From contig JACPMX010000004.1 in assembly GCA_016185755.1 (NCBI GenBank), positions 62,001 through 126,000 on the forward strand: 64,000 nucleotides of DNA. Reading direction: 5' to 3'. Below, piece after piece: positions 29,318-37,130 of the stretch. Within the stretch, counting starts at the first letter, position 1, and every line of letters starts with the position of its first letter. The DNA is from Candidatus Woesearchaeota archaeon (lineage in GTDB: Archaea; Nanobdellota; Nanobdellia; Woesearchaeales; GW2011-AR4). Under the pieces are notes generated by a model, which worked only from the letters and a program-made list of their open reading frames with translations, did no database searches and was not told where the DNA came from. A program made the translations under genes and the position numbers.

Positions 29318-29353
29318 TCAAGAATAGTTTATTTGATTAATTTATAAAATTTT

Positions 29354-29412
29354 CAATCCGCTTTGCAAATCTTGTGCTCGGAGGCATTAAACCTCCTTGC
29401 CCATATATTTTA
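29354..29412. repeat. Two-hairpin repeat element, copy A
   Basis: + strand GC-TTT-GC ... CTC-GGAGG-CATTAAA-CCTCC-TTGCCCATATATTT. Confidence 0.6.
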
Positions 29413-29540
29413 TCAACGGGTTACCTCAATCACAGTACAGAAAGAGGTCGTTCTAAGTTTTTTGAAATTTTTTATTTTTTAATGCGTTTTTTTATTTTAA
29501 TTTTTGTTAATGGCAAATTTGATATGAATATAAATAAAAT

Positions 29541-30188
29541 TTATTCATCAGTCTTCACATTTCTTTTCGCAATCTTGTCCCTTATCTCGTTGGCATACTT
29601 GTGCGCTAAATGCAAAGGCTCCGGCAGCTTGTGCGGAAACCTTATGCATTCCTTGGCTATTTCAACGCTTGTCTTCAGGCTTATTTTATGCCCGGGGCTC
29701 ACGTAAATCGGCTTTGAATGCTGCCTGGAAACAAGCATTTCCGCCCTTGCTTCCTTGTCGATGTAAACTACGCCCCCTTTGGATTCTCCTGCAAGGAGCT
29801 GTTTCGCAGTTCCTATTGAAGCCTGCTCGAGCAGAACCCCCATGTGCGACGCCAGCCCAAGCCTTCTTGGGTGCGAAATCCCATGCCCGTCAAAAATCAT
29901 GATGTCAGGCCTGTTTTCCAGCTTTGCATAAGCTTCCGCTATCGCAGGGCCTTCCCTGTACGCAAGAAATCCTTTCAGGTAAGGCACTTTGGCCCTTGAA
30001 ACTGAATAAACTTTTTCCTTCAAAGACATCGTCTTGTAGTCGCACACGGCAATCGCGGCTATTATTTCTTCGCCATTGTAGGAGCAGTCAGCACCTCCAA
30101 TAAGCTCCAGCTTTTCAAAAGAGTCGCTTGTGACTACTTTTTTAGCCAGCTTCAGTTGCTCCTCTTTTAGCCTATTGAAGTCTATCAT
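29541..30188 (-). CDS. nfi: Endonuclease V
   Basis: GGADCSY, PYLKGFLAYREGPA, DGHGISHPRRLGLASHMGV. Confidence 0.92.
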   Translation of the reverse strand: MIDFNRLKEEQLKLAKKVVTSDSFEKLELIGGADCSYNGEEIIAAIAVCDYKTMSLKEKVYSVSRAKVPYLKGFLAYREGPAIAEAYAKLENRPDIMIFDGHGISHPRRLGLASHMGVLLEQASIGTAKQLLAGESKGGVVYIDKEARAEMLVSRQHSKPIYVSPGHKISLKTSVEIAKECIRFPHKLPEPLHLAHKYANEIRDKIAKRNVKTDE

Positions 30189-30230
30189 AAAAGAAAAAGG
30201 TGTAAAAGCCTTATTTAAAATTTTTTGCTG

Positions 30231-30494
30231 TCATTTCTTTATAACCCCAAAAATATACAGGATAATAACGCCGGATATCACCAGCAGAATCAGGATTGGA
30301 ATGCTTATCAGCTCCTTCCTTATGTTTTCAGCCTCTTGATGTATCTTGTGCTCGAAAGCTGTTATCTCGTGCAGCGCATTAAGGGCTTCATGGTGCTTCA
30401 GGCCCCTTTTCAGAAGGTAATTCTCAATATGCTCGAGGGAAAGCCCTCTTTCAAAAGCTTCCTTTCCCCATTTTATAAGATGTTCATGCGGCAT
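30231..30494 (-). CDS. Small C-terminally anchored membrane protein
   Basis: Ends ISIPILILLVISGVIILYIFGVIKK; SD-like GAGGTGA upstream. Confidence 0.6.
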   Translation of the reverse strand: MPHEHLIKWGKEAFERGLSLEHIENYLLKRGLKHHEALNALHEITAFEHKIHQEAENIRKELISIPILILLVISGVIILYIFGVIKK

Positions 30495-30501
30495 GATTAG
30501 G

Positions 30502-30598
30502 AACCCTTTATCACCTCTTTTGTTTTAAAGGGTTTGGCCCCCCTTGTTCGGTTTATACGTGGGGGTGGTTTGAGAAGAAATCGCTTCCAGGGGGCCAA
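30502..30598 (-). promoter_or_regulatory. Structured 5' leader candidate
   Basis: TTGGCCCCC/GGGGGCCAA 9-bp stem (30534-30542/30590-30598) and AACCCTTTA/TAAAGGGTT 9-bp stem (30502-30510/30526-30534) with the SD complement in the loop. Confidence 0.45.
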
Positions 30599-30640
30599 TG
30601 AAGAGACTAAGTTTTTTAAATTATTTGATTTTCACCTTCT

Positions 30641-30715
30641 TTTTAATCTGTGCTTCGCACAAATTTTACTGCTCGGTGGCATCCGACCACCTCGCCTATG
30701 CATTTAACGATTATT
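30641..30715. repeat. Two-hairpin repeat element, copy B
   Basis: + strand GTGC-TTC-GCAC ... CTC-GGTGG-CATCCGA-CCACC-TCGCCTATGCATTT. Confidence 0.6.
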
Positions 30716-30719
30716 GATT

Positions 30720-31130
30720 TTATCTTACCAATGATTTTGCCGGTTTTCTCATCTCTCTTATCCAAAGCAGCCCTATATGCTGCAAATCCTTGTTTAGCTT
30801 GTCGCTTATCCTGTAAGTTTTCTTGTAAAGGTCGTAATCCACAAGCCCCATGCTTTTCATCGGGGTCAAAATCCTGTCGTAAAACTGCCTTTTGTTGTAT
30901 GAGACCTTGACTTTCTTACCCTTGTACGGAGGTTCATCTATCAAGTCCGTTATCAGGCTGCCTTCATGAAGCTTAGTTGCAAACAAAGACATCTCTGTCT
31001 TGCCAATCTCGCCGCCGTTGTCCTTCATCATCTCCATGAGCAGCTTGGCAACAATTATCTGCTGCTTTGTCGCAAATATTACCTCATAAATGTCTTCAGG
31101 TAGGTTAAACCTGTCAAACAGTATAACCAT
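30720..31130 (-). CDS. Winged-HTH-like protein
   Basis: KQQIIVAKLLMEMMKDNGGEIGKTEMSLFATKLHEGSLITDL...ILTPMKSMGLVDYD. Confidence 0.55.
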   Translation of the reverse strand: MVILFDRFNLPEDIYEVIFATKQQIIVAKLLMEMMKDNGGEIGKTEMSLFATKLHEGSLITDLIDEPPYKGKKVKVSYNKRQFYDRILTPMKSMGLVDYDLYKKTYRISDKLNKDLQHIGLLWIREMRKPAKSLVR

Positions 31131-31277
31131 TTCAAAAGAGAAGTTGAACAGGTATATAAATGTTTCGATTTTAGATACTAGTATAGGAAAAGGTATATTG
31201 AAATTTGAGTCTATTTACTAGCCATAAAACAATTGGCTTGGGTTAATTTTTTAAATAAAGATGCGTGCCTATGAGCC

Positions 31278-31643
31278 ATGACATTGTACCATGCAACTCC
31301 TGCAGATAACTTAGATAGTGTATTAACAGATGGAATCTTGCCGAGCTACGATACTGAATTGAGTGCTCCGATTATTTGGGCGGCTGACTCTCCATTGGTC
31401 GCGCTCGCTAAAGCATACGAGATGGAAGTAATAAGAACAAACCAGGCCATAAGATCAGGATTTTACCGTGAATTGCCACCTAAATTTGCAATATTCTATA
31501 TTGATTCTTCCATAATACATGGCCATTCATGGCGTGAAAATTGCTATCTGGTATTTGAAACTGTACCGCCAACCGCAATAAGGCATGTACAAGAAGAAAC
31601 ATTAGAGACAGCCGCTTTATTATACCCATTTTTTTCTGATTAA
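31278..31643 (+). CDS. ADP-ribosyltransferase-fold-like small protein
   Basis: LYHATPADNLDSVLTDGILPS resembles the H-T...GL N-terminus of DarT/KptA-type ART folds. Confidence 0.45.
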   Translation: MTLYHATPADNLDSVLTDGILPSYDTELSAPIIWAADSPLVALAKAYEMEVIRTNQAIRSGFYRELPPKFAIFYIDSSIIHGHSWRENCYLVFETVPPTAIRHVQEETLETAALLYPFFSD

Positions 31644-31672
31644 CTGCTTCCAAAAAACCCCTTCAAAACCAT

Positions 31673-32032
31673 TTATTTCACAAACTCGACATTCTCAAAA
31701 TTTTCAAATCCTTCGTCACCTGTCAGAAATATTAAATTTTTATCCTTTGCCAAAACATAGCCAACACAATCTATGAATGAGAATTTTTTATTTTTGTTGT
31801 TAAATCTGAATTTCATTGCTGCCTTTATAATTTCAGCATCTACCAGCATAGCACTCTGTTTTAGTTTTTCATGCCAAGTTTCAGCTGCCTCAGCATTTTT
31901 CTTGAGCAATGAATAGTACAACTCCCCCACATTCAGGATAGAAGTTACTATTTCTTCTTCCTTATACTTCTCGTAGTTTTTATTATCTTCAATAATTTCT
32001 ATTATGGAATAAGTGTCGAAAAAATATTTCAT
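31673..32032 (-). CDS. vapC: VapC-like PIN-domain toxin
   Basis: MKYFFDTYSIIEI...EEEIVTSILNVGELYYSLL...FSFIDCVGYVLAKDKNLIFLTGDEGF. Confidence 0.85.
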   Translation of the reverse strand: MKYFFDTYSIIEIIEDNKNYEKYKEEEIVTSILNVGELYYSLLKKNAEAAETWHEKLKQSAMLVDAEIIKAAMKFRFNNKNKKFSFIDCVGYVLAKDKNLIFLTGDEGFENFENVEFVK

Positions 32033-32034
32033 TT

Positions 32035-32265
32035 TCAGAAAAATTTGCTGTCCAATTCCTCATCAACTTCTTTTAGAAGTTCTTTTGTGTTTAATTTCAA
32101 TTTAAGCTTGCCAAATATATCTTTCACCTTTAATGTTTTGACTGGAGTGATAACTACCTTGACTTTCTGGTCAACATGCAAGCCTTCCTTTTTAATGTCT
32201 TCTTTGGGTATAATAACCCCTATAGAATTTCCCCAGACTTTAAGTCTCGTTTCGTGCTCTATCAT
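32035..32265 (-). CDS. vapB: AbrB-family antitoxin (VapB-like)
   Basis: RLKVWGNSIGVIIPKEDIKKEGLHVDQKVKVVI. Confidence 0.85.
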   Translation of the reverse strand: MIEHETRLKVWGNSIGVIIPKEDIKKEGLHVDQKVKVVITPVKTLKVKDIFGKLKLKLNTKELLKEVDEELDSKFF

Positions 32266-32308
32266 TGTATATCTCTAGTTATACGGTATAACTAATATAA
32301 ATAACTTC

Positions 32309-34177
32309 CTATTTTTTATCAAAAAATTCCCTTAGGGTCTCTTCATAATCAAGGCTGACCTCCATATCCCAGTCTTCCGGAAAGCATTCGTAATAATTTC
32401 TCCATGCATATCTCTCATCCAGGAATATGATTGCTCCTTTGTCAGTTTCTGACCTGATGCAGCGGCCAGCATTCTGCAGGCATTTTGTAATGGCCGGCAG
32501 CACATACCCATATTCAAACCCTTTCCCGAACTTGTCGTCATAGTACTCTATCAGCAGCCTTGCTTCCACATCAGGCTTGTTCAACGGCAATCCTACAATT
32601 ATGACAGCCTGCAAAACACCCGGCATGTCTATTCCCTCCCCAAAAGAGCCTGTTGAAGTGCCAAGAAGCACCGCTCCTTTATGGGCTTTAAATGCTGTAA
32701 GCAGGTTTTCCTTTTCTGTCTTTGCCATTGCTGCTTTCTCTGCAAAAACCGGCTTTTTGGCTTCCTTGCCAAGGAATTCAGAAATATTTTGCATCAGGTC
32801 ATAGCTTGGGAAAAAAATTGCTGTATTGCCATCAACAAGGTTGACTATGTCTCCGCATACTTTTGCTATCTCTGCATATTGCCTGTGGCTTCTTTCTGCA
32901 AATTTTGTGGTTGTCTTGGGTATTACCAAGTTCAGCCTGTTTTTCTTGGGAAACGGGCTCTTGTATTCTTTCTCGACAACATCATTAAAGCCAAGAATGT
33001 CCCTGTACATTTCAGTTGGTGTCAAAGTCCCTGACATCAGGACAGTAGAATGGCTTTTCCCGATCACTTCCCTTGCAGCTATTGAAGGGTCCAGGCACCT
33101 GTAAGCCAGGCTTATTTTCAGTTTCTTGTCAGTTTCTTTGGCAAGGATCCTTCCAAATCCTATGTCAGGCCCAAGCCAGGCCTCTAAAAATTTTGCAATG
33201 CCGAGCACGAAGCTCTTTTTCTGCTTGTCCCTTATATCCTCTCCAATGAACGAAAGCTCTGCAAGCACATCGTCATAATTCTTGCTCCTGCTTATTGCAT
33301 CAACAAAGTCATTCCTGCTCACGGTCCCTTCAGCATCTATATCCTTGCCAATCTCAAAAAGGGCATTCTCCACAATATCGAGATTTTCAACAGTTTCATC
33401 ATAGCCCAGTCTTCCAGCTTCCTTCTTCGCGTTTTCAACAGCAAAGCTCGAGGTTTTCTGGGTTAGCAACTCCCTTATCCTTGTCGGAAGATTATGGGCC
33501 TCGTCAACTATCAATATTGCCTTGTCAAGCTCTTTTTTTATCTTGAGAAGAAAGCTGTCCCTTATCCCGCTGTTGAAGATGTAGTAATAGTCAGCTATGA
33601 TGACTTTTGCATTTCCTGCTGTCAAAGTTGCCAGCTCGTAAGGGCACATTGATTTCTTTTTTGCCTGCTCCGTGTACTCATGCACATGGCATGGACCTAT
33701 TATCCTCAATTCCTCAATTGCCTGCATAGCGCCTATAGTAGGCTGCGAAGTGGGCTTTCTTGTGTTTATGTAGAATTCGCACTTGCTTTCCTCCCTTAGC
33801 GACTTGCAGTACTCATGGAAAGAGCCGTTTGCCATTGCCTGCACTTCATTTTGGAGGCACATCCATTTCTTGCCTATTATATCAGCGCACTCAATTTCAA
33901 CCCCAAGCTTCTGCTTTATCTGCCTCAAAGTATCCACCACAATCCTGTGCTGGGTCTGCCTTGATGTGAGGAAGAAAATTGTCAAATTGTTTTTCATTGC
34001 CAATGGAAGTGCAGGTGCCAAAACAGAAATTGTCTTGCCTATCCCGGTTGGCGCATGCATTATTATGTGCTTTTTTCCTGAAATCGCATTGTAGACATCA
34101 GAAATCATATTGCCCTGCACATCCCTTATCTTGGAATATGGAAAATATATTTCCTTCTGGAGTTCCTCATCAAGCAT
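32309..34177 (-). CDS. XPD/Rad3/DinG-like superfamily 2 helicase
   Basis: HAPTGIGKTISVLAPAL, VDEAHNLP, GTLTPTEMYRDILG, QNAGRCIRSETDKG; start placed at the MLDEELQ Met because the upstream 35 codons are repeat copy C. Confidence 0.85.
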   Translation of the reverse strand: MLDEELQKEIYFPYSKIRDVQGNMISDVYNAISGKKHIIMHAPTGIGKTISVLAPALPLAMKNNLTIFFLTSRQTQHRIVVDTLRQIKQKLGVEIECADIIGKKWMCLQNEVQAMANGSFHEYCKSLREESKCEFYINTRKPTSQPTIGAMQAIEELRIIGPCHVHEYTEQAKKKSMCPYELATLTAGNAKVIIADYYYIFNSGIRDSFLLKIKKELDKAILIVDEAHNLPTRIRELLTQKTSSFAVENAKKEAGRLGYDETVENLDIVENALFEIGKDIDAEGTVSRNDFVDAISRSKNYDDVLAELSFIGEDIRDKQKKSFVLGIAKFLEAWLGPDIGFGRILAKETDKKLKISLAYRCLDPSIAAREVIGKSHSTVLMSGTLTPTEMYRDILGFNDVVEKEYKSPFPKKNRLNLVIPKTTTKFAERSHRQYAEIAKVCGDIVNLVDGNTAIFFPSYDLMQNISEFLGKEAKKPVFAEKAAMAKTEKENLLTAFKAHKGAVLLGTSTGSFGEGIDMPGVLQAVIIVGLPLNKPDVEARLLIEYYDDKFGKGFEYGYVLPAITKCLQNAGRCIRSETDKGAIIFLDERYAWRNYYECFPEDWDMEVSLDYEETLREFFDKK

Positions 34178-34220
34178 GAATATGGGTGTAAGTTTCTCTT
34201 TAAATGGTTTATTAAACGGA

Positions 34221-34285
34221 TTTTTAATCCGCCTTCGGCAAAAGTTACTCTCGCATGGCATTAAACCATGCTCGCCATACATTTA
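34221..34285. repeat. Two-hairpin repeat element, copy C
   Basis: + strand GCC-TTC-GGC ... CTC-GCATGG-CATTAAA-CCATGC-TCGCCATACATTT. Confidence 0.6.
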
Positions 34286-36195: not shown

Positions 36196-36310
36196 GCGCC
36201 AGTAGCTCAGCTTGGATAGAGCGACAGCCTTCTATCTGCTGAGGGCCGAGAGCTGAGAAGTATTTGTATCTTCGTTCACTAGGTCGGGGGTTCGAATCCT
36301 CCCTGGCGCG
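36196..36310 (+). tRNA. tRNA-Arg(TCT), intron-containing (two putative introns)
   Basis: GCGCCAG...CTGGCGC acceptor, GCTC/GAGC D-stem, ACAGC-CTTCTA 5' anticodon half, GGGGG-TTCGAAT-CCTCC T-arm; 40 extra nt, and splicing 36256-36279 restores GCTGT-AGGTC. Confidence 0.75.
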
Positions 36311-37130
36311 TTTTTTTATATAATATAAATGGATTTAGCTTTCCAGCTAGGATTTGTTTCCTTTGCTCTAGTGAGGTATTAGGTGGACAAAATCCGTGCT
36401 TTTTCCATATTAAATATTTTGAACTAAGTCGAGGGTTATTAATTCCTATAATAGAAATCCATTTTTCAATGTTATCTTTGCCTGATAAATACAAAGAATG
36501 TGTTTCATAACAAATATTAAATCTTTTATCAAAGTTTTTTTCATTTAATATGAGATTAGCATTAAACCCGAATTCCGCCAGTATAGTATTCAACTGGCAA
36601 ATGATGCTTTTACTTTTTAAAGAGCATTTTATAACTGGATAATTATGAATGTATTTTTTATTTTTAAATGATAAGCTGAAATCAGTTCCTGCAAGACCAC
36701 GGATAAAGGCAGATTTTATAGATTCATTAGATTCTATTATTAATTGAGGAATTTGAATTTTTGAAGCCTTGTTTCCAATTGGTATCAAAAAATTTGAATT
36801 CATAAAAGTTACAATAGATTTCGAGCATTTAACTGCATTAAAATAATTTAATTTCTTATTTTTTCTGATTGATAGTTTAGCATTAAACAATTTTTTAAAA
36901 AGCGGGTTTATAACTTTATTAAAATAGTCCATATCCTCTGTAAAATTACAAGTTATAGTTAATGAATAGAAATTTGAATCATTTCTAACTTGGTGAGCAA
37001 GATGCCCATCGCCAATTACTATGCCTGTAAATTCTGCTAGGTTTTCGTTTAAATATTTAGGCAAAGAGATTTTTGAATATTTATCTTTAATACTTGGCAA
37101 TATATCCAAATTTAGCTGTTCCATTTTCAA
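36279..37130 (-). CDS. LAGLIDADG-like homing endonuclease-type protein
   Basis: LAEFTGIVIGDGHLAHQ and KSAFIRGLAGTDFSLSF motifs; C-terminal GGFEPPT tail is read-through into the tRNA. Confidence 0.75.
   Translation of the reverse strand: MKMEQLNLDILPSIKDKYSKISLPKYLNENLAEFTGIVIGDGHLAHQVRNDSNFYSLTITCNFTEDMDYFNKVINPLFKKLFNAKLSIRKNKKLNYFNAVKCSKSIVTFMNSNFLIPIGNKASKIQIPQLIIESNESIKSAFIRGLAGTDFSLSFKNKKYIHNYPVIKCSLKSKSIICQLNTILAEFGFNANLILNEKNFDKRFNICYETHSLYLSGKDNIEKWISIIGINNPRLSSKYLIWKKHGFCPPNTSLEQRKQILAGKLNPFILYKKTRQGGFEPPT

Follow-up and report, generated by a model that had tools for sequence, protein, structure and literature searches.

The three hairpin elements of the window (the whole 64,000-nucleotide stretch of DNA analyzed), here called copies A, B, and C, are members of a large family, not catalogued before, of short, noncoding hairpin repeats that lie between the genes of one group of Woesearchaeota (DPANN). 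We consider it fairly probable that the family consists of lineage-specific interspersed repeats, REP/BIME-like in organization and characterized more by their structure than by their sequence, that spread within genomes and probably act on mRNA. A sequence-only reading of the window had described a three-copy "unrecognised dispersed RNA or miniature mobile element in this lineage," laid out as two hairpins on the plus strand. The positions, hairpins, and flanks of the three copies hold up on rereading the sequence, and the elements are indeed dispersed, structured, covarying, lineage-specific, and mosaic; the strand, however, was wrong. RNA folding z-scores of the three copies are -3.1, -4.0, and -1.6 on the minus strand versus -1.4, -2.0, and -1.7 on the plus strand, and reading them on minus, which we call sense throughout, adds U.G closures, tandem G.A pairs, and a GNA triloop to their hairpins.

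A loose pattern taken from the loop of hairpin 1 recovers seven true copies in the host genome (four beyond those of the window) and none in a reversed control. A covariance model built from seven host-genome copies, the three window copies among them (R1), finds 39 matches in the host genome at E ≤ 1, and a refined model of 93 sequences (R2) finds 58, about 50 of them at E < 0.01; what had been taken for a three-copy element thus amounts to some 50 arms in the genome as a whole. Within the window, R1 yields no match better than E = 0.09 besides copies A to C. Extending the covariance-model search to relatives, as the sequence-only reading had proposed, gave R1 matches in 31 of 59 genomes searched: all 19 congeners (with 2 to 64 copies each), several further genera in the family, and hardly any genome outside it. 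Across 288 genomes of the order, R2 is positive in 16, of which 15 belong to the host's family. Scanning 84,980 species for an exact pattern gave 24 contigs with Woesearchaeota or Nanoarchaeota in their titles, plus one Shewanella match that is without a match to the covariance model and is attributable to chance. Matches of ~77 nt are not tRNA mis-hits, ARAGORN finding no tRNA at those places. At the curated threshold, an Rfam scan of the window reports tRNAs only and no family at copies A to C, a scan at the elements of five loci gives nothing near threshold, and the literature that we found, partial in its coverage, does not describe the repeat family.

Table 1. Repeat copies and neighboring features in the window. 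The R1 scores of the three copies are for sequences that are also in the R1 training set.
Feature	Positions	Strand	Basis
Copy A, arm P1-P2, short-loop class	29344..29404	-	R1 match, 66.1 bits, E = 3e-17
Copy A, P1	29376-29402	-	sequence reading
Copy A, P2	about 29355-29370	-	sequence reading
Copy A, upstream hairpin P0 (AACG-ACCTC..GAGGT-aacc-CGTT)	29415..29452	-	sequence reading
Copy B, solo arm P1-P2	30634..30699	-	R1 match, 81.1 bits, E = 8e-22
Copy B, P1	30671-30696	-	
Copy B, P2	about 30645-30663	-	
Copy C, solo arm P1-P2, upstream of XPD/Rad3-like helicase gene	34215..34278	-	R1 match, 70.2 bits, E = 2e-18
Copy C, P1	about 34248-34276	-	
Copy C, P2	about 34226-34243	-	
Conserved block beside copy B	30535-30625	-	
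136-aa protein	30720-31130	-	
tRNA with insertion	36196-36310	+	Rfam
ORF overlapping the tRNA	36279-37130	-	weak LAGLIDADG/intein-like similarity

The basic unit of the family, the arm, consists of two hairpins, P1 and then P2, separated by a linker of about 7 to 10 nt, and it occurs solo, behind a further hairpin (P0), or joined head to head with an inverted arm of another subtype. P1 begins with GC followed by GA opposite GA, continues into a stem of 4 to 11 bp without fixed sequence (often with a second GC-GA/GA-GC step after it, before the loop), and closes with GA-GC; its loop is CGGAU/UUAAU in a short class and is built around RUGGCARAA in a long class. P2 has the form UUG-[variable stem]-C(GNA)G-[stem']-CRGAUU; of 163 parsed arms, 123 have GAA as this loop, and another 11 have GTA, GCA, or GGA. 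P0 (consensus A[G/A]CG-ACYYY..RRRGT-RAYC-CG[C/T]T) precedes many arms, including that of copy A, where it forms a third hairpin absent from the earlier two-hairpin description. This module is itself dispersed, with 43 to 45 distinct sequences in the retrieved loci, most of them followed by an arm, and it too has paired variants (34 AGCG/CGCT versus 8 AACG/CGTT; ACTTT/AAAGT versus ACCTY/RAGGT). Elsewhere, an arm of a second subtype (GAGTGTAAA for GAGCACTAAA) stands in reverse orientation at the position of P0, giving the head-to-head inverted pairs; in the host genome, R2 locates about 11 neighboring pairs of opposite-strand matches.

Two minor observations concern P0 and its position. The bulge nucleotides of P0 (RAAC/AATC versus RACC) vary together with the third pair of the stem (T-A versus C-G), which would fit a link between both through a triple or an alternative pair, and a further dispersed module, CGTCGCTTCCCARCATCT..AATGGGAACCCAGCTCAGGA, occurs at three loci (L046, L051, and L238) in the position that P0 has in other copies.

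The P1 and P2 stems covary beyond both shuffled and shifted controls: both sides are changed in 132 cells (26 ± 9 in shuffles), the covariation score is 0.303 (0.114 ± 0.007 shuffled), and 94% of cells are paired (34 to 47% in slid controls). Template switching in palindromes could also give concerted stem change, so covariation alone is no proof of selection, and by itself it does not separate RNA from single-stranded DNA. The compensatory change between copies A and B (GGA/CCT to GGT/CCA) is synonymous, as had been claimed, and the peptide frames of all three window copies are open, but a family of short peptides (GLMPPS), the alternative entertained in the sequence-only reading, is very improbable. 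Even though 63 of 144 arms have an open MPPS frame (68 of 288 for other frames), the frame is not conserved in the repeat family: just 14 of the 144 anchored arms combine an in-frame ATG with an open frame, every length class modulo 3 occurs among the arms, insertions and deletions in the stems break the frame, and the long-loop class is without the motif.

Orthologous sites display both presence/absence of the element and exchange of its modules. The site of copy B is filled in four of nine genomes (by a short arm, a long arm, P0 plus a short arm, and an inverted pair) and empty in the other five. At the site of copy C, before the helicase gene, 5 of 13 readable genomes carry a clear arm at one and the same position, following a shared conserved flank, and 2 more carry a divergent arm form; across genomes, these arms have wholly different stems and differ even in loop class, while one genome has the flank without an arm and one has an arm in the opposite orientation. 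Two related genomes (G010 and G004) share P0 at one site, but only one of them has the arm that follows; in the other, something else stands in its stead. When flanking genes were compared blind, 12 cross-locus pairs with a common site emerged (one pair being the same genome twice), with orientation kept in all save at C. At sites B and C and in the pair G004/G010, the flanks are too diverged to show insertion boundaries or target duplications. For 54 of 131 arms, the nearest neighbor is another arm of their own genome, versus 24 ± 5 by label shuffling, and since the closest copies are only about 88 to 92% identical, there was no recent burst; taken together, the comparisons of sites and arms indicate that copies spread slowly within genomes or were homogenized and that some sites are old. 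Several common sites with kept orientation are more than freely moving repeats predict, and this counts against the interspersed-repeat explanation, as do the lack of a recent burst, of an identified transposase, and of a GTAG/CGTC tag.

Arms are intergenic and usually lie just 3′ of a stop codon, the distance being mostly 0 to 45 nt for solo arms (copy B begins some 20 nt past the stop codon of the gene for the 136-aa protein) and 90 to 170 nt for those accompanied by P0 or a second arm. Of the genes located up to 450 nt upstream, 59 run in the direction of the arm and 22 do not. Between tandem genes (simple longest-ORF calls), 37 arms are sense and 10 antisense (p = 1e-4), and those with P0 or a partner are sense in 15 cases and antisense in none. 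The flanking genes are of many kinds, and elements also stand within likely operons, between apparent pyruvate dehydrogenase subunits and between L1 and L10 ribosomal proteins (gene names assigned by eye from sequence). A riboswitch or 5′ leader of the helicase is unlikely, because the element is separated from the start codon by a TATA-like box and because other copies precede unrelated genes.

The sense bias and the position in likely operons count for RNA, as do the better folding of the sense strand as RNA and the keeping of site and orientation across species while stems wholly change; adding the tandem G.A motifs and conserved loops, one could see in the family a new class of structured RNA, cis-acting in intercistronic or 3′ regions or working as small RNAs, that spread by duplication and is kept for processing, stability, or termination. 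We judge this unlikely, given that the flanking genes have no evident common function, that copy number runs from 2 to 64 within one genus, that one arm of each inverted pair is antisense, and that, among roughly 885 variable-stem pairs, G.U (8) is no commoner than A.C (6), unlike in tRNAs from the same loci (9 of 167 pairs are G.U in this small, partly redundant control). The scarcity of G.U counts for single-stranded DNA, as do the inverted pairs, the module swapping, and the loops of the C(GNA)G kind, known to form DNA mini-hairpins of extraordinary stability (PMC4686876). Under DNA folding parameters, too, the sense strand tends to come out ahead of its complement, though less clearly than under RNA parameters. 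Under the preferred explanation of interspersed repeats, slow spread within genomes would be due to machinery that recognizes the folded single strand, and the hairpins, once placed, would sit in intercistronic or 3′ parts of messages and probably act on mRNA processing or stability; such an action on messages would explain the avoidance of antisense placement and the long keeping of some sites.

The closest known systems are bacterial REPs: lineage-specific hairpins that frequently form head-to-head dimers between unlike subtypes, that are hypothesized to stabilize mRNA or terminate transcription and whose GTAG types go with Y1 transposases, whereas the CGTC types do not (PMC3733652, Table 1). 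Like GTAG-type REP/BIME systems (with RAYT/TnpAREP), the archaeal family has intergenic hairpins with 5- to 13-bp stems in tens of copies, head-to-head dimers of different subtypes, mosaic combinations, and lineage-specific sequence; unlike them, it has no linked Y1 transposase, has two to three hairpins per unit with tandem G.A, and resides in archaea. With CGTC-type REPs, it has in common the predominance of head-to-head dimers and the lack of a transposase gene association (for those REPs, PMC3733652, Table 1), but its units are larger and its stems of arbitrary sequence. No unpaired tag, whether GTAG/GTRG or CGTC/TGTC, was found at the 5′ foot, which is (G)GCGA, with GA opposite GA. TnpAY1 class 3 repeats of Acidobacteria are likewise repeated secondary structures in high copy number whose 5′ foot contains GA (PMC6006769), but that foot is CnGA rather than GCGA/GGCGAG, and no class 3 transposase was seen (Y1 classes not typed). 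With the organizational features present but the tag and the Y1 link missing, we file the family as REP/BIME-like and not as REP. Integron attC sites, too, are structure-defined hairpins with variable stems, located behind genes and co-oriented with them; the archaeal elements are instead scattered among housekeeping genes, without arrays, and no attC core boxes were seen by eye.

In a survey of complete genomes, the IS200 type was the only Y1 transposase subclass seen in Archaea (PMC6006769), which left Archaea without a known REP transposase. The genomes with 56 and 64 copies lack Y1 (PF01797; genomes are 62 to 99% complete), and an arm lies within about 0.5 kb of the Y1 gene in only 1 of 17 Y1-containing loci searched; as Y1 presence does not track copy number, a dedicated Y1/RAYT partner is unsupported. 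These observations also make it improbable that the repeats are MITE-like, nonautonomous derivatives of an IS200/IS605-type or other insertion sequence, now mostly immobile, as their subterminal-hairpin style, their presence/absence at sites, and their within-genome similarity might suggest: no full-length parent element was found, nor did viral contigs contain the exact pattern, which leaves a virus-borne origin unsupported. Tentatively, the family may represent a new class of archaeal structured element (tandem-G.A hairpin, GNA-triloop hairpin, and P0), kept in sense orientation between cistrons and subject to wholesale stem replacement; a putative structure-reading protein would both spread the element and act through it on messages, in effect a REP-like system of DPANN archaea without RAYT. 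The presence of a REP/BIME-like system in reduced-genome, probably symbiotic archaea would imply that mosaics of this kind arise without RAYTs, and its several hundred hairpins with freely varied stems would offer a natural series for finding the protein that reads structure rather than sequence.

Other features of the window deserve mention. Beside copy B lies a conserved block in sense orientation, TTGGCCCCC..TTCTTCTCAAACCACCCCCACGTATAA..GGGGGCCAA, which is nearly invariant in seven genomes of the genus and combines a 27-nt conserved loop with an unvaried stem; it is possibly an independent conserved RNA or regulatory site. The adjacent 136-aa protein, for which there is no Pfam or NCBIfam match, is 91 to 96% identical across most of the genus, versus 65 to 81% for the nearby helicase. 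Farther along, a tRNA with an insertion, found by Rfam and not by ARAGORN, and the ORF that overlaps it on the other strand probably represent a tRNA that carries an intron and a neighboring homing endonuclease gene.
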